Source of the DNA: Candidatus Berkelbacteria bacterium Licking1014_7
GTDB taxonomy: Bacteria; Patescibacteriota; UBA1384; GWA2-35-9; CG2-30-39-44
Direction: 5' to 3'
Length of the DNA: 33,061 bases
Assembly: GCA_007376535.1 (NCBI GenBank)
Contig: VMGK01000018.1
Coordinates: 1-33,061 of the forward strand
Part shown: piece after piece, positions 1 through 16,503 of the stretch
Layout of the letters: each line of letters starts with the position of its first letter
Position numbering within the stretch: position 1 is the first letter of the stretch
Program-made: the position numbers and the translations under genes
The notes under the pieces: generated by a model
Seen by the model: only the letters and a program-made list of their open reading frames with translations
Database searches by the model: none
What the model was told of the DNA's origin: nothing

Positions 1-27
1 GTTCTGCTCGTGCGCGCGGCGCACATC

Positions 28-110
28 GCATAACAGCGCCTATGCGAAATGTCGGTCTGGCGACTGCGGTCGCCATCCCGCCACATCGCATCAGGCGCGA
101 TACGTTGTGC
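28..110 (+). repeat. attC-like recombination site A
   Basis: R'' GCATAAC (28-34) and R' GTTGTGC (104-110); L'' GCGCCTATGCGA pairs with L' TCGCATCAGGCGC with extra bases; 83 bp, immediately upstream of the Nudix ORF. Confidence 0.6.
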
Positions 111-153
111 GAAATTTCGCTCACTGCCTTCTATAAAATAAATTCTATTTTTT

Positions 154-618
154 ATGCCCAACAAACCACATCCACAAAAAAGACATCAAAATATCCCCGC
201 TTCTTATTTGACTTTAATGAAAGATAACAATGTTTTATTGCTTCGGCGTTTTAATACAGGATACGAGGACGGAAATTATAGTATGATTGCAGGCCATGTA
301 GACCAGGGCGAGACTTTTACGCAATGTATTATTCGAGAGGCCGAAGAAGAAGCGGGAATATTTTTAAAGCCAGAGGATTTAAATGTTGTCCACGTGATGC
401 ATAGAAACTCGCGTACTACTGAAAACAACGAAAGGGTTGATGTCTTTTTTGTTGCTCGGCAATGGCAAGGCGAACCGCTGAACAAAGAGTCTCACAAGTG
501 CGATGATTTGTCGTGGTTTGAACTTGATAATCTTCCGGACAATGTTATTCCGTATATCAGACAAGCTCTCGAAGGCATAAAAAATAGAATTTATTATAGT
601 GAACATGGTTGGCAGTGA
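154..618 (+). CDS. NUDIX hydrolase
   Basis: ORF with Nudix box GHVDQGETFTQCIIREAEEEAGI (GX5EX7REUXEEXGU). Confidence 0.93.
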   Translation: MPNKPHPQKRHQNIPASYLTLMKDNNVLLLRRFNTGYEDGNYSMIAGHVDQGETFTQCIIREAEEEAGIFLKPEDLNVVHVMHRNSRTTENNERVDVFFVARQWQGEPLNKESHKCDDLSWFELDNLPDNVIPYIRQALEGIKNRIYYSEHGWQ

Positions 619-628
619 GCAAAACATC

Positions 629-826
629 ATATAACACCGAATATGAGGTTTAAAAAATTTGCGCAATTAGATTTTTAATTAAGGAGTGCAAAACTTTTTC
701 GACCCAAATTCTCTTTTCTCCGCTGGTTGGCAAAACAAGAAATGTGCGTTAAAATAGCATTGCTAATTAACAAAATTAATTCAATAAATCCGAAAAGCGA
801 ACTTCGCATACTCGGATACGTTGTGC
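629..826 (+). repeat. attC-like recombination site B
   Basis: R'' ATATAAC (629-635) 10 nt after the Nudix stop; L'' CCGAATATG vs L' CATACTCGG; R' GTTGTGC (820-826). Confidence 0.5.
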
Positions 827-923
827 AAAATCGCTCGCTCCGCTCGCAATTTTGCCCAATGGGCGGCGGCTTCGCCTCGTTATGCTCTGCCACTCGCTCC
901 GCGAGCGACATCGCACAACTGTC
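820..923. repeat. ~104-bp imperfect palindromic unit, copy 1
   Basis: GTTGTGCAAAATCGCTCGC...GCGAGCGACATCGCACAACTGTC; near-identical to 1361-1464 and 1773-1878. Confidence 0.92.
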
Positions 924-1205
924 AATTGGAAAGATGTTCCAAATGTTGATAAGTTTGATCATCTTCATGAAGAATTAATTGAGATGTCTCAACATTTGAG
1001 GTATAAGTCAGAAGAAGAACGCAAAAAATTTGTTGAAAATAACAAGGAGATTTTTGTAGATGGCATAGGTGATTTGTTTTTTGGAACTTGTCGTCTTGCA
1101 AATCAACTTGATGTAGATATTGAAGATGCATTTAATTTAGTTAGAAAAAAAATTCTTGCAAAATATAATCATAAAAATCCTGAAAATAATTTGACAAAAA
1201 AGTAA
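900..1205 (+). CDS. MazG-like nucleotide pyrophosphohydrolase, probably 5'-truncated (ORF opens within the repeat)
   Basis: NWKDVPNVDKFDHLHEELIEMSQ...FVDGIGDLFFGTCRLANQLDVDIEDAF resembles EExxE/GD MazG fold; reading frame runs directly out of the palindromic unit; true start unclear. Confidence 0.6.
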   Translation, partial: RERHRTTVNWKDVPNVDKFDHLHEELIEMSQHLRYKSEEERKKFVENNKEIFVDGIGDLFFGTCRLANQLDVDIEDAFNLVRKKILAKYNHKNPENNLTKK

Positions 1206-1213
1206 GCGGACTC

Positions 1214-1367
1214 GGGCAACACTTCAGGGATGCTGCGCTTTCGCTCCACTGCGTTCCGCTCACCCTCGTATAACAAGGGATATACGGTTCAGCCCTCAGC
1301 TCGGGCTTCACCCAAATTTTTCTTCCACTTCGTTTCAGAAAAACTTCGTATATCCCTGACGTTGGGC
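1214..1367 (+). repeat. attC-like recombination site C (alternative R'' at 1268)
   Basis: GGGCAAC (1214-1220)+TTCAGGGAT vs ATCCCTGAC+GTTGGGC (1361-1367); alternatively GTATAAC (1268-1274)+AGGGATATACG vs CGTATATCCCT. Confidence 0.5.
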
Positions 1368-1464
1368 AAAATCGCTCGCTCCGCTCGCAATTTTGCCCAA
1401 TGGGCGGCGGCTTCGCCTCGTTATGCTCTGCCACTCGCTCCGCGAGCGACATCGCACAACTGTC
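1361..1464. repeat. ~104-bp imperfect palindromic unit, copy 2
   Basis: Near-identical to copy 1. Confidence 0.92.
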
Positions 1465-1691
1465 ACATCAAAAAGCTAAAAGCCGTCTTAGATAAAAATA
1501 GAGATCAGTTAGAAGATGATATTGGAGATATATATTGGTTTTTAGCGCTTTTGGCTAATGGCAGTAATATAAATATGGATGAGGCGATTGATAAAGTAAT
1601 CAAAAAAAATGAAGCAAGATTTCCTGCTTCCGATGTTAAATCTAATCACACAAATCTTTATTTAGGTGGAAAAGATAAACAATATAAATAA
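1465..1691 (+). pseudogene. MazG-like pyrophosphohydrolase C-terminal fragment
   Basis: LEDDIGDIYWFLALLANGSNINMDEAIDKVIKKNEARFP resembles the second half of MazG-type domains; the N-terminal EExxE half is absent and the frame opens in the repeat. Confidence 0.55.
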
Positions 1692-1702
1692 AACGAGACT
1701 TC

Positions 1703-1779
1703 ATATAACGCTGGATATGGGGTTCCGCTTCGCTCCACCCATATTGCTTCGCAACATTGCATATCCCGATACGTTGTGC
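1703..1779 (+). repeat. attC-like recombination site D
   Basis: R'' ATATAAC (1703-1709) 12 nt after preceding stop; L'' GGATATG vs L' CATATCC; R' GTTGTGC (1773-1779); 77 bp. Confidence 0.6.
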
Positions 1780-1878
1780 AAAATCGCTCGCTCCGCTCGC
1801 AATTTTGCCCAATGGGCGGCGGCTTCGCCTCGTTATGCTCTCTGCCGCTCGCTCCGCGAGCGACATCGCACAACTGTC
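1773..1878. repeat. ~104-bp imperfect palindromic unit, copy 3
   Basis: Near-identical to copies 1 and 2 with a 2-bp insertion. Confidence 0.92.
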
Positions 1879-1948
1879 GGCTATGCGACGCTTCGCTCCA
1901 TTTTGCCTGTCCAAAAGCAAGCTTTTGTCCAGTCAAAACGGCGCATAA

Positions 1949-2426
1949 TATGACATATAGAAAAAAACAGAAAACAGAGAAGTATCGCAATGCAAAATCG
2001 TCTAAAAGTTGTCCCCGTTGTGGACTATGTGGGAAACATGGCAAATTGACTAAAACAGATTGTTGCGGTCAGTGGATTTGTGATGATGCAGACCAGTATG
2101 TTCTTTTTTCTTATGATAGAAATAGCTGCTATCGGAATCATGATAGATACACGCTCTGTTCGTATCATCATAATGAAGGACACAAAGGTGATTGGAAAGA
2201 GTGTCGAAAATGTATAGAGGGTTTAGAAACTGAGATGTACGTTTGGTATGGAACCAACGAGTATAATTTTGAGAAACTTCCGAATCCTCCCAAATATGAG
2301 CCGACAAAGTGCGCAGAGTGCGGAAAAATTATCAAACTAGGTGAAGACGGATATAGTGTGTTTAAGGGGAAGTATTTGTGTGAGAAATGCGAAGACTTTA
2401 AACACTATGAAAAGAAAGAAAAATGA
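1949..2426 (+). CDS. Cys/His-rich hypothetical protein (putative zinc ribbons)
   Basis: ATG at 1949; CPRCGLCG, CCGQWIC, CRKC, CAEC...CEKC motifs. Confidence 0.7.
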
Positions 2427-2442: not shown

Positions 2443-3004
2443 TTGGCTCAGGCGCAAAAAATTATGGAACAAGAATCAAAATTTATTCCTCAATCAGAAA
2501 TCGAGAAAAACATCATCAATATTGGTTCAAGAGGCGAAACTGAAACTGAAATGATGTTGTCCAATTTTGCTCATACACCATTTAAGTTAGATGATGTTCA
2601 TTACGAGTCAGTGGAAGGATTCTGGCAAAGCATTAAATTTCCCGAAGGCAGTAAAGAGAGAGTAGAGACTGCAGAATTCATAGGGGGCAAGGCAAAGAGA
2701 GCCGGCAAAAGTACGAGAGGCATAAGAGAAATTGAGTACCAGGGTCCAGAAAATAGAAGTTGGCTCACCCGAGCATCATGAGTTAATGAAACAAGCGATA
2801 AGGGCAAAATTAGAACAAAACCCAGATGTACTGAAATTGCTATTAGATACAGGAGATAAACAAATTACCCACTTATTGAAAACTCCGGATGGGAGAACAT
2901 TGCCGGACAGCAAGACAATTCCCGGCGCGGTCTTTTCTCAAATACTTATGGATTTAAGAGAAGAATTTAGGAAGAGGATATCAGACAGAGAGTTTTTTAA
3001 TTAA
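2443..3004 (+). pseudogene. NADAR/YbiA-like (DUF1768) protein, frameshifted
   Basis: Frame 1: LSNFAHTPFKLDDVHYESVEGFWQSIKFPEGS; continues in another frame as EHHELMKQAIRAKLEQNPDVLKLLLDTGDKQI; break near 2755. Confidence 0.75.
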
Positions 3005-3266: not shown

Positions 3267-3592
3267 TAAGGACGCGGGATTCGAACCAGAATCAATTTAG
3301 CAGAGTCAATTTTACTTCTATTCAAGACGCGAGGAGCGAAGCGATGCTAAAAGCATCGTGAGCGACGAGTCCCGTTAGAAGTAGAAGACGGGATAAGTCC
3401 GCGACTTCTAACGGGACGAGCAACACAGAAAAGGAGTAAAATTGACCTGCCCGAAGGGAAGTTAAAAAATGGCTGATTTCTTTATTGCTCCTCCTCGCAG
3501 TAGTTTCCCACTACTTCTTCGTCGGAGCGCTGCGAAATCATCTCATTTTTTAACTTCTAAACTTGACTCTGGTTCGAATCCCGCGTCCTTAG
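3267..3592. repeat. inverted tRNA T-arm-like fragments bounding nested hairpins
   Basis: taaggacgcgggattcgaaccaga at 3267 and its reverse complement tctggttcgaatcccgcgtcctta ending 3592; internal inverted repeats TCCCGTTAGAAGT/ACTTCTAACGGGA and GAAGTTAAAAAATG..GATTTC. Confidence 0.75.
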
Positions 3593-4707: not shown

Positions 4708-4850
4708 ATTTCCTTTCGACCGAAGGTTGGGGATTGTTTTGGTTGTGTTTTCTGGCTTGCCGCTTGGCATTTTAAGATTATGCGCTGCGGGTCACAGTTG
4801 CGGGACAGCTCCGGATTCTCACCGGAATTGCCACAACCAAAATATTATGT
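4708..4850 (-). promoter_or_regulatory. cobalamin riboswitch
   Basis: Minus strand: GGCAATTCCGGTGAGAATCCGGAGCTGTCCCGCAACTGTGACCC...AGCCAGAAAAC, matching the B12-box core. Confidence 0.93.
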
Positions 4851-4893
4851 TTTTAATATATTAATTCATTGTGGTCATAAAGCAAAAAATTTG

Positions 4894-13012: not shown

Positions 13013-14122
13013 TTATTTAAGTTTTCTTCTGATAAACGCTGGGACTTCGATTTCGTCCTCCTCTTCTTCTGGTTCAAACTCTGGCTCAAATTCAGTGGTT
13101 GGCATCGCCTCTTCTTGTTCTGCTGGTTGAATGGTTTTAAAACTTCTGGAAAATTTTCTTTCGGTCTCATATTCAAAGCCAGTGGCAATCACGGTAATTT
13201 TTATTTCTCCAGACATGGCTTCGTCAATAATCGCCCCAAAAATGATGTTGGCGTCTGGATCAGCCGCTTCTGTTATGGCTTTGGCGGCTTCATCGATTTC
13301 GTACATACTCATATCTGGTCCGCCGGTAATATTGAATAAAATTCCTTTGGCGCCGTCAATCGAAAGTTCAAGCAGTGGACTGTCGATCGCCGCGCGCGCC
13401 GCCTCAACCGCGCGATTGTCTCCCGAGCCCCTGCCGATGCCCATCAGCGCGGATCCAGCATCTTGCATTATGGTTTTTACATCAGCAAAGTCAACATTGA
13501 TGACGCCGTGCAAAGTGATAAGATCTGAAATGCCTTGCACGCCTTGTCGCAAAATATCGTCAACAATGCCAAACGCATCAAAAAGCGAGGTTTTTTTATC
13601 AATTACTTGAAGCAGGCGATCGTTGGGAATAGTAATTAATGTATCAACTTTGTCTTTGAGTTCTTCAATACCGACTTCCGCTACTTTTTTTCTGCGCGCG
13701 CCTTCAAAAGAAAATGGTTTGGTTATCACGCCCACAGTCAACGCTCCCAATTCTTTGGCAATGCCTGCCACCAATGGTCCGGCGCCTGTGCCAGTGCCAC
13801 CGCCCGCGCCATAAGTGACAAAAACCATATCCGAACCCTTTAAGGCCTCGTAGACCTCTTCTTTGTTTTCTTCGATTGCTTTTCTGCCTTTTTCAACATC
13901 GGCGCCGGCGCCGAGCCCGCGGGTGGTTTCCTTGCCGATTTGGATTTTAATTTGCGCTGGATTGTTGGCCAGATCTTGCGCGTCAGTATTGATGGTGATA
14001 AAATCTACGCCGCGAACTTTTTGCGAGATCATTCTGCCAATGGCATTGCCACCCGAGCCGCCCACGCCCACAACGCGAATAACAGCAAAGGTTTCAATTG
14101 GTGTTTCAATTTCTTTTGACAT
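13013..14122 (-). CDS. ftsZ: cell division protein FtsZ
   Basis: GVGGSGGNAIGRM, YGAGGGTGTGAGP tubulin signature, C-terminal EVPAFIRRK. Confidence 0.98.
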   Translation of the reverse strand: MSKEIETPIETFAVIRVVGVGGSGGNAIGRMISQKVRGVDFITINTDAQDLANNPAQIKIQIGKETTRGLGAGADVEKGRKAIEENKEEVYEALKGSDMVFVTYGAGGGTGTGAGPLVAGIAKELGALTVGVITKPFSFEGARRKKVAEVGIEELKDKVDTLITIPNDRLLQVIDKKTSLFDAFGIVDDILRQGVQGISDLITLHGVINVDFADVKTIMQDAGSALMGIGRGSGDNRAVEAARAAIDSPLLELSIDGAKGILFNITGGPDMSMYEIDEAAKAITEAADPDANIIFGAIIDEAMSGEIKITVIATGFEYETERKFSRSFKTIQPAEQEEAMPTTEFEPEFEPEEEEDEIEVPAFIRRKLK

Positions 14123-14131
14123 AGTAATTCA

Positions 14132-14160
14132 TTTATGCCACAGACAAAAATTTTTGTCAA
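14132..14160 (-). promoter_or_regulatory. putative ftsZ promoter
   Basis: Minus: TTGACA-N17-CATAAA; -35 abuts the CCCCCACACATA hairpin. Confidence 0.55.
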
Positions 14161-14161
14161 G

Positions 14162-14187
14162 CCCCCACACATAACTATGTGTGGGGG
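14162..14187. repeat. CCCCCACACATA palindromic hairpin, copy 1
   Basis: cccccacacataactatgtgtggggg. Confidence 0.95.
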
Positions 14188-14218
14188 TCAATCCCCCCCC
14201 TTTTTCTAAAAAAACAAT

Positions 14219-14233
14219 GTTCGGTATTTGTTC
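14219..14233 (+). promoter_or_regulatory. candidate LexA operator (GTTC-N7-GTTC) upstream of ftsZ
   Basis: ATGTTCGGTATTTGTTCG. Confidence 0.45.
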
Positions 14234-14322
14234 GCTACAATAATTGTGAATTATGAATGGTGAATAAATAATTTTCAATATTTGAAAAAATTTTACCAGC
14301 CTACCAGAAAGATGTTAAATAT

Positions 14323-14363
14323 GAAAAAGCGCCGCGGAGCAAAAGTCGCTTCAACGCGGCGCT
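14323..14363 (-). terminator. strong rho-independent terminator
   Basis: Minus: AAGCGCCGCG-loop-CGCGGCGCTTTTTC. Confidence 0.85.
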
Positions 14364-15052
14364 TGGGGTCAGTGGTGATGGCGCGGCTTCTTCAGTCGTT
14401 TTTCTGGCTTGTGCCAGATTATCCCCTGGGGTATTAACCACCGGTGGGACCATCACCTGTCAAGAGATGGAAGGCGTCGGGCTGCGCCTTCCGGTGGTCT
14501 CTCCTGTCCTTACTTTCTCCCCGAGGCATAACAAGCCCCCAAGGAGAACCCGTGGACAGGAGAATTCATGTAACCGTCCGGCTGGCCAAGCCGGTGAGTG
14601 TGATGGGGCGCAGCCAACTGGTGCCCCCTCAGATCGTTGTCCGCCCGCCGTTTTACGGGAAATGGCGGGTCGATCACGGTTTTGGAAAGGGTCGTCCGGG
14701 CGTCGTTGTCCGGCGGGTATTGAGGGCTTCATCCCTCACCCGGCTCCGCTCATTGGCGGAACACGACCCACATTACACCGGCGCACGTCAGCCAGCCGCG
14801 CCGCGTTCGGACGTCTACTTCCACTCCTTAGGATATGAGCGGAGAGTAGAGAGCCCTAGCAGGGGGCTGGCGCTGTGTGGGGCGGGATGAGAGAGACTGG
14901 GTGGGCGCGTTAACGCCACACTTGCCGGGCTTGTCCCGGCTGTCTCCCAGCTCGCCCCCTCTCTGTGGGGCGCCGGTGTCGATGCCTTGGTAAATCCGCA
15001 AGCTCAATCCGCCTTATCGGCGGAGAGCTCAAGCAGATTCTCATTGTCAATG
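14325..15052 (-). ncRNA. putative GC-rich structured RNA, identity unknown
   Basis: GC-rich block in AT-rich genome; consensus promoter at its 5' end, terminator at its 3' end on the minus strand; many internal hairpins (CTGGCACAAGCCAG, CCACCGGTGG, GGAAGGCG..CGCCTTCC); no coherent minus-strand ORF. Confidence 0.65.
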
Positions 15053-15057
15053 TTTGC

Positions 15058-15086
15058 ATTATAGCATATGGAAAAACATTTGTCAA
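15058..15086 (-). promoter_or_regulatory. consensus sigma70-type promoter for the putative ncRNA
   Basis: Minus: TTGACA-AATGTTTTTCCATATGC(17)-TATAAT. Confidence 0.9.
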
Positions 15087-15258
15087 GCCCATTGCTCAAT
15101 TTGAGAACAAAAATATGTATTTTAGGTATATTCTTTTCCCAAAAAAGCACACTTCGGAAGTATACTTTTTTAAGCCTGACAGATCAGAACAAAATTGCCC
15201 GCCCGAACCCTAGTATATACTAAGAGATTGGGGATAACCTTGTAGGTTGATATATGGT

Positions 15259-16503
15259 TTACGGCAACAACTGGCGAAAAAAATCCTTGACTTTTCCTAA
15301 AAACCCGGAGAGATCTTTGGGTACGGCAAAATTAAACCCGCTCTCTTTTCGGGTACGGAAGGTTTCATCCAATCCTTCAAGCAGTAACCCGATTGAGACC
15401 GAAAAACTTGGGTTATTCAGATTGTCAATCGCGCCAGAAACCCCCAGAATCGGCAGACCTTTTTGCGCTGGAAGCGATAATTCCTCTTTTGCCATTTCTA
15501 TACAACCTTTGATTTGACTGCCGCCGCCAGTTAGCACCACGCCGGCTGGCAGGCGCGAGTCCTTTTGGATTCTTTTGAGTTCTATCCGCGCTTTTTCAAA
15601 AATTTCTTTCATGCGCGCTTCGGTAATCTCCGCGATTAACTTTTTTTCAATTTTATTGGTTTCCCGCGGGTCAAAATTTTTCAGTCCAACTATGCCTTCA
15701 GCCGCATTTTCCGGGTTGCAATCGCCGAATTTGATTTTTATTTTTTCCGCTACTTCTAATGAGGTTTTAAGACCAATAGCAATGTCGTTAGTAACATGGG
15801 TTGAGCCAATCGGCAAAATGTTGCCGTATAAAAGTTCTCCTTCTTCCCAAATGGTGAGTGTGGTGGTGCTGGCGCCGATGTCAAGCAGTAGCACTCCGGC
15901 TTCCTTTTGTTTTTTGGTAAGCAAAGTGCGGGTTGAAGCCAGTCCGTTGAAAACCAATGTTTCTGGCTTTATGCCAACCTGCGTGATAGATCGCTCTAAA
16001 TTTTTAAGCGCGTTTGAAGATCCGCCGATAATCATCACTTCTGCTTCAAGCCGAATGCCGTTCATGCCGGTGGGGTCTTTGACAGATTCCTGTCCGTCCA
16101 CGATAAATTGTTCTGGAATAACATGCAAAATTTCTTGATTGGGCGGTAGCGCGATAGCGGCTGCCGCGTCCACCACCCGCTCAATGTCTTGATCAGTAAT
16201 TTCGCCGTTGGGGCGCGAGACAGCAATAATTCCTTTTGAAAGCGCGGTGATAATATGCGCTCCGCCTACGCCAGCAATTACTTTGTCAATCGGCGCGCCG
16301 GCTTTTCGTTCCGCCACTTCAAGCGCTGACGAAATCGCGCTCATCGTGTCTTCAATATCAATGATTATGCCTTTTCTTAGTCCAGCATTTGGCGTGGCAT
16401 TAAGCGACAAAATTTCAATCAGTCCTTCGCTGATTTTTCCGACTGCAAAAGCCACTTTGCTCGATCCAATATCCAGCCCAGCCACAATTTGAGATGATTT
16501 CAT
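15259..16503 (-). CDS. ftsA: cell division protein FtsA
   Basis: IVAGLDIGSSKVAFAVG, GVLLLDIGASTTTLTIWEEGEL, VVLTGGGSQIKG. Confidence 0.96.
   Translation of the reverse strand: MKSSQIVAGLDIGSSKVAFAVGKISEGLIEILSLNATPNAGLRKGIIIDIEDTMSAISSALEVAERKAGAPIDKVIAGVGGAHIITALSKGIIAVSRPNGEITDQDIERVVDAAAAIALPPNQEILHVIPEQFIVDGQESVKDPTGMNGIRLEAEVMIIGGSSNALKNLERSITQVGIKPETLVFNGLASTRTLLTKKQKEAGVLLLDIGASTTTLTIWEEGELLYGNILPIGSTHVTNDIAIGLKTSLEVAEKIKIKFGDCNPENAAEGIVGLKNFDPRETNKIEKKLIAEITEARMKEIFEKARIELKRIQKDSRLPAGVVLTGGGSQIKGCIEMAKEELSLPAQKGLPILGVSGAIDNLNNPSFSVSIGLLLEGLDETFRTRKESGFNFAVPKDLSGFLGKVKDFFRQLLP

Follow-up and report, generated by a model that had tools for sequence, protein, structure and literature searches.

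The window described here, the whole stretch of DNA that was analyzed, is a contig (C21) of 33,061 b from an 806-kb genome (41 contigs, 94% complete) of a bacterium of the candidate phyla radiation (CPR). At its left end, four attC-like sites alternate with genes for a Nudix hydrolase and two MazG-like proteins, and genes for a Cys-rich and a NADAR-like protein follow. Judged from sequence, this region very likely forms the array of a chromosomal integron that belongs to a lineage-specific CPR type. Here, an integron-type cassette array in a putative CPR genome had been proposed earlier from the letters alone (the sequence-only reading), and this proposal is supported by the present analysis. 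The window contig also carries ftsZ and ftsA at 13,013–16,503 (translations read by eye) and is therefore chromosomal.

Probable recombination sites in the window and a candidate integrase

All four sites display AAC...GTT cores and paired arms, as seen by eye and with a simple scan. In a mechanical scan of the forward strand for R''/L/R' elements, attC-C ranked first (29.5) and attC-A second (27.0), the maxima in random sequence being 24–27.5; sites B and D are therefore not distinguishable by that scan alone. Since only A and C stood above random sequence, sites from relatives were used for an attC covariance model, R1. This model was built from four sites only (from G227, G336, which gave two, and G002), which adjoin a recombinase gene in related genomes, and window sequence was absent from the training. 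Within the 33-kb window, the R1 matches at E ≤ 5 are A, B, C, and D only, all on the forward strand (both strands searched), and they score far above chance. Thus, a model trained on other genomes puts four attC-like sites within 1–1880, essentially where the sequence-only reading had placed them. One correction concerns R'' of attC-C, which lies at 1268; the position 1214 given before is rejected. In a search of the whole genome with R1, C and D were recovered, and B appeared as a weak and partial match (E = 0.9).

The arms of attC-A read L'' GCGCCTATGCG and L' CGCATcAGGCGC, the latter carrying one extra base, and those of attC-C read L'' AGGGATATACG and L' CGTATATCCCT. Folding of the bottom strands, a check suggested together with the original proposal, yielded −32.3 kcal/mol for attC-A (z = −6.3), which beats every shuffle. 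For A and C, the folded bottom strand is far more stable than shuffled sequences, which energy alone does not show for D; the bottom strand is the better folding one in A, C, and D and not in B.

Table 1. Positions of the attC sites, genes, and E copies in the window (R1, attC covariance model).
Feature	Position	Strand	Evidence and remarks
Contig start	1–23	+	reads GTTCTGC...; may be where a cassette begins, or the 3' remainder of one interrupted by the assembly
attC-A	24–112	+	R1 22.4 bits, E = 0.004; R'' GCATAAC 28–34, R' GTTGTGC 104–110
Nudix hydrolase gene, cassette 1, intact	154–618	+	PF00293, E = 3e-19
attC-B	625–828	+	R1 34.8 bits, E = 5e-6; long variable part
E element, copy 1	820–923	+	104–107-nt gene-less unit; start GTTGTGC complementary to end GCACAAC
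MazG-like gene, cassette 2, without 5' end	925–1205	+	PF03819 matched weakly, E = 0.019; starts where E copy 1 ends
attC-C	1264–1369	+	R1 64 bits, E = 6e-13; R'' TATAAC, R' GTTGGGC
E element, copy 2	1361–1464	+	repeat comparison
MazG-like gene, cassette 3, without 5' end	1465–1691	+	PF03819, E = 5e-5
attC-D	1699–1781	+	R1 48.4 bits, E = 3e-9; last attC of the array
E element, copy 3	1773–1878	+	repeat comparison; after attC-D
Cys-rich protein gene	1950–2426	+	no Pfam match; after the last attC, no closing attC

A candidate integrase is present on another contig of the same genome, C3. It is a tyrosine recombinase of 272 aa (G000:C3:68217-69032), which ends in ...THVTNPNIKNIKSPL and whose gene starts 109 b from the contig end. 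The residues R133, H222, R225, H248, and Y257 are invariant, K158 is conserved and PF00589 is matched, i.e., the catalytic R, K, HxxR, H/W, and Y of tyrosine recombinases are all present. Classical integron-integrase models matched only two Xer-like proteins in this genome, one of them this recombinase, both below the cut-off. Contig C3 terminates exactly at a conserved attI-like core (...ACGAGTTAG|), its final bases being ...ATAACGAGTTAG, and the window opens with GTT... inside the array. We infer that the end of C3 and the window array are one integron split by the assembly, with a physical link between C3 and C21. The sequence-only reading had called the array similar to a cluster of attC sites lacking an integron integrase (CALIN). 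For the contig alone this name would apply; it does not suit the genome, which has a candidate integrase and an attI-like core on C3.

Orthologues of the C3 recombinase with 54–75% identity are found in seven other genomes of the class, and the motif AAACGA|GTT lies ~110 b upstream of each of these genes. Throughout 34 loci the attI is conserved, giving TTCGnATAnAAACGAGTTATnnGAAAT, to which the C3 end of this genome can be added. The consensus TTCGnATAnAAACGA|GTTA is located ~110 bp upstream of the recombinase gene, so that an attI with a G^TT crossover lies next to a tyrosine recombinase gene at the 34 loci and at the C3 end. The attI seed AnGAGTT was picked by eye, and the weight therefore rests on the flanking positions.

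Related recombinases and attC arrays across the CPR

A recombinase scan of 84,980 species genomes left 80 relatives, mostly labeled as CPR (Portnoy-, Kerfeld-, Dojka-, Uhr-, Moran-, Nomura-, Peregrini-, Magasanik-, Wolfe-, Woese-, and Gracilibacteria, WWE3, and others). Of the loci of these recombinases, 37 contain attC sites, ~90 altogether (R1, E < 0.01) and up to about eleven per locus; one of the loci lies on a finished chromosome (CP011209). In 87 loci, all matches at this threshold near recombinases are upstream of the gene and point away from it. Furthermore, an even draw of 380 genomes of the phylum, searched with strict thresholds, revealed the recombinase in 49 (about one in eight) and the attC type in 53. 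Here, attC sites are present in 36 of the 49 genomes with the recombinase vs. 17 of the 331 without it (Fisher p = 1.2e-26). Integrons had been expected to be unusual in this lineage, and in this sense they are not. Clusters of attC sites were also seen in genomes that lack a close recombinase copy (L154 in G311, L155 in G391, L156 in G392, and in G117, G118, and G024), which are either CALINs or belong to another integrase. CPR-type recombinases (L049, L070, L098, L104, L120) occur in bins labeled Actinomycetota, Micrarchaeota, Margulisiibacteriota, Deltaproteobacteria, and Pacearchaeota, due to either misbinning or inter-phylum transfer.

An alignment of 102 attC sites was fitted to the structure, and the fair comparison is therefore the one with the slide and shuffle controls. 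In this alignment, 92.5% of the cells are paired and 296 cells are compensatory (double-changed), compared to 94 ± 9 in shuffles; shifting the partner by one column lowers the pairing to 24–26%. The R1 matches as well as this covariation reveal paired R''/R' and L''/L' arms. The bottom strand is the more stable one in 88 of the 102 sites (mean −2.3 kcal/mol), in comparison to 46% and +0.07 for random segments. In 40 neighboring cassettes, the cassette start (GTTNNNNG) matches the complement of its own R'' at 169 of 200 bases, as must be the case for a cassette that passes through a circular form; redealing the R'' boxes gave 109 ± 6 matching bases and none of 5000 shuffles was as high as 169. 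The longest open reading frame follows the array direction in 75 of 82 cassettes, in keeping with the co-oriented and mostly single-gene cassettes of integrons, and the median cassette has 746 b.

Cassette shuffling in relatives, which the sequence-only reading had recommended to look for, is seen in one clear case of exchange. G336 and G311, two genomes of different families, have in common a cassette that encodes a DNA methyltransferase-like protein (82.6% over 1,561 nt), and the cassettes that come next differ. The same reading had also named what would speak against it: covariance scores at chance level, sites that do not mark cassette boundaries in relatives, and an identical gene order. 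None of these was observed, as the sites do bound cassettes there and cassette content and order vary between genomes.

Two further similarities were noticed. The stretches L047:8299-8490 and L071:139-329, from bins labeled Kerfeldbacteria and Kuenenbacteria, are 96% identical over 192 b spanning an attC and a cassette end, which is either a recent exchange or a shared attC. In three genomes, an HNH-endonuclease-like gene is the first cassette after attI (L038:9917-10585, L035:450-1138, and L124:393-1129). The proteins of L038 and L124 are similar on visual comparison, which would fit a cassette family that is recurrent at position 1.

Of 80 recombinase genes, 33 start ≤600 b from a contig end that lies on the attI side and none from one on the other side, 4.4 being expected per side. 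The contigs L057, L060, L064, L091, L092, and L093 as well as C3 end at a distance of no more than about five bases from the crossover. Since assemblies break where the cells of a population differ, contig ends at attI suggest, but do not prove, cassette turnover in nature, as repeats break assemblies too.

In the proposed mechanism, the C3 tyrosine recombinase, whose gene is read away from the array, would integrate circular cassettes at attI, cutting G^TT. The attC closing each cassette would fold as a single bottom strand, in which the R''/R' and L''/L' arms pair, and the first bases of a cassette (TTNNNNG) would complete its own R' box in the circular form. The sites, covariation, strand bias, attI, orientation, co-occurrence, and one shared cassette were established here by computation, whereas the recombination chemistry, the use of a single strand, and a present-day activity are inferred.

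Cassette genes, the E element, and neighboring features

The cargo listed by the sequence-only reading is only partly retained. The Nudix gene stands, and so do both MazG-like genes, albeit truncated at the 5' end, while the Cys-rich and NADAR genes lie past the last attC. R1 has no match downstream of attC-D in the window, and the cassette status of these two open reading frames beyond the last attC is therefore not established. The NADAR/Phage_30_3-like gene (2443–3004) is split over two frames (2443–2781 and 2732–3004), which reflects a frameshift or a sequencing error.

A 107-nt repeat, overlooked by the earlier reading, is present immediately 3' of the R' boxes of B, C, and D (818–924, 1359–1465, and 1771–1877). 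These three array copies are the only ones in this genome, and a 60-nt stretch of the repeat has no exact match in the genome contig collection. The element, called E, begins with R', ends with GCACAACTGTC and occupies the place of the lost 5' ends of both MazG genes. E-like units are found elsewhere, in G336 (one at attI, one behind the last attC) and in G319 (at attI); their coordinates outside the window are L036:8808-8890, L036:11445-11532, and L039:1-95. They are gene-less and palindrome-rich, range from 82 to 107 nt and are placed precisely at attI or behind an attC R' box. Their ends are always complementary and co-vary between genomes (GTTATCC/GGATAAC, GTTATGC/GCATAAC, GTTAGGC/GCCTAAC). 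An internal hairpin, NNNNAAT-GGCGG..CCGCC-GTTNNNC, is like a mini attC. Since attC-like arms follow the E-like units in G336, E looks like a gene-less cassette, as far as its sequence tells. The window array itself looks partly decayed, with an E copy at the start of three cassettes and the 5' ends of both MazG genes lost; this truncation at E is possibly a local decay or a misassembly.

An Rfam search of the window gave no match to the attC family, the sole match being a cobalamin riboswitch aptamer (RF00174, 38 bits, 4727–4853, reverse strand). Just past it, genes for a DUF4430 protein and a DUF6580 membrane protein are located on the same strand. A 32-nt inverted repeat (3267–3298 and 3560–3591) resembles a tRNA 3' end (GGTTCGAATCCCGCGTCC) and flanks a palindromic stretch; ARAGORN did not find a tRNA there.

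Alternative explanations and relation to IntI and XerA systems

Several observations weigh against an integron array in the window. Neither an integrase nor an attI is present on the window contig; the absence of an integrase had been stated before. Site A is weak by sequence and absent from the R1 matches in the whole-genome search. Extrahelical bases, though typical of attC, are not consistent, with one extra base in A on the L' side and none in C or D. The starts of the three window cassettes agree with their own R'' at 2/5, 2/5, and ≤1/5 bases (direct reading), unlike those of most relatives. The repeated E unit and the truncated genes could include an assembly error. Among the genomes with the recombinase, 13 of 49 have no attC at this sensitivity, and some attC clusters are far from the recombinase.

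An assembly error would mean that the array was joined wrongly at the repeated E, the sites being real and the gene order not. E is with 104–107 nt near the k-mer size of assemblers, both MazG 5' ends are lost exactly at E and the contig starts inside the array. Nevertheless, E-like units also occur at a cassette start or attI in G336 (twice) and G319 (once), where their own start and end boxes change together, and we regard such an error as rather unlikely. That the attC-like sites are palindromes of the repetitive extragenic (REP) or miniature inverted-repeat transposable element (MITE) type or terminators could be suspected, since the region is palindrome-rich and E is present three times. 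This is rejected on location and complementarity and retains hardly any probability: the match of R'' and own start, the AAC/GTT cores, the attI match, the one-sided location and orientation, and the co-occurrence with the recombinase all contradict it. A classical IntI acting in trans could also move ordinary CALIN cassettes, with the CPR recombinase as an unrelated housekeeping enzyme. This would fit two strong sites in the genome, a window contig without integrase, and the frequency of CALINs in metagenome-assembled genomes (MAGs; PMC9024848, PMC9668308). However, TIGR02249, the integron integrase model, is matched above its cut-off in none of the 380 sampled genomes, the occurrence of the attC sites follows that of the CPR recombinase, immediately upstream of whose gene they are located, and R1 does not match the classical attC sites of class-1 plasmids, which makes this explanation very improbable. 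Since R1 does not match these plasmid sites, the CPR attC sites are a separate family, distinct in sequence.

The origin of the recombinase is a further question. Among solved proteins, the integron integrase IntI4/VchIntIA (PDB 2A3V) is the closest to the CPR recombinase in both sequence and fold (structure model with pLDDT, the predicted local distance difference test, of 82 and a poor C-terminus), and the C-terminal SPL motif is common to the CPR recombinase and IntI. The profile aligns to IntI4 on either side of residues 186–237, which stay unmatched, and the IntI-specific additional domain of ~40 residues near patch III is missing from the CPR enzyme. Its score is 221 bits against TIGR02249, for which the curated cut-off is 265, and 218 bits against NF040815, for which it is 220; the NCBI name of the latter family is “site-specific tyrosine recombinase/integron integrase.” The distance from R to HxxR is 90 aa, as in Xer enzymes, vs. 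131–133 aa in IntI. In a tree of 95 sequences, with only five IntI and with Bacteroidota XerA-like enzymes but not archaeal XerA, the CPR enzymes group in a single clade (100/99), separate from that of IntI (100/97), and the Bacteroidota enzymes branch with the CPR clade at a weak node (84/40). As the recombinase lacks the domain of IntI and is placed outside the clade of the sampled IntI, the CPR systems are integrons in their architecture but not classical IntI integrons. An independent origin, in which integrons arose or were re-invented from an XerA-like recombinase rather than from a divergent IntI minus its domain, is a hypothesis we can only hold tentatively: the separate clade, the Bacteroidota relatives, and the Xer-like spacing speak for it, whereas the best match to IntI4, the SPL motif, the attC/attI architecture with G^TT crossover as in IntI systems, the weak node, and the sampling of the tree speak against it. 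A 304-aa recombinase in G145 (L022, G145:C5, 2393–3307) carries an insertion of 24 residues at the place of the IntI extra domain and reaches 235 bits to the integron integrase model. An attC lies 2.2 kb upstream of it, and this recombinase is possibly an intermediate form.

Integrons are known from ~14 bacterial phyla and some archaea, and the surveys and reviews (PMC8618304, PMC9024848, PMC9668308) do not include the CPR (Patescibacteria). The available part of a groundwater survey, which applied IntegronFinder to MAGs including CPR and considered complete integrons only, does not report CPR integrons (PMC12259885). A report of CPR integrons was not found in the open-licence PMC literature, a scope outside of which preprints and most subscription papers lie. 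IntegronFinder recognizes IntI by the IntI-specific domain (PMC9668308). Since the CPR recombinase has no such domain, surveys would label these arrays CALIN or miss them, and standard tools would probably miss such integrons. The data suggest a widespread gene-exchange system of the CPR. It is conceivable, and proposed here with reserve, that a phylum-wide class of CPR integrons with an XerA-like integrase independent of IntI and without the IntI domain exists, whose arrays recombine now so that assemblies break at attI. Since CPR genomes are tiny, a platform for gene capture bears on how reduced symbionts gain functions. The extra domain of IntI is held necessary for integron recombination; its necessity for the recombination of folded attC, and the origin of integrons, become testable.

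Taken together, the CPR system is an integron by architecture and probably by mechanism, with a non-IntI integrase. The XerA-type recombinases (NF040815; PDB 4A8E, 5HXY) have the same size and domain layout as the CPR enzyme and are likewise without the extra domain. Archaeal XerA acts at dif-like sites, whereas the CPR clade adjoins attI and attC arrays. Archaeal integrons resemble those described here in their uncultivated hosts, their discovery by attC and integrase, and their mostly fragmentary arrays; in contrast, archaeal IntI keep the IntI-specific domain, and that study found far fewer integrases and did not cover CPR genomes (PMC9668308). With the Vibrio chromosomal integron (IntI4/VchIntIA, 2A3V), the CPR arrays share co-oriented cassettes, each closed by a foldable attC, homogeneous and lineage-specific attC families, an attI beside a divergently read tyrosine recombinase gene, the G^TT crossover, and the bottom-strand bias. 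Unlike in the Vibrio system, the attI of the CPR lies ~110 bp upstream with its own consensus, consistent extrahelical bases are not evident, and the attC is characterized by a short 5' spacer and by conservation of its variable part (GGTTC..CACCCAwATT..AACWTC).
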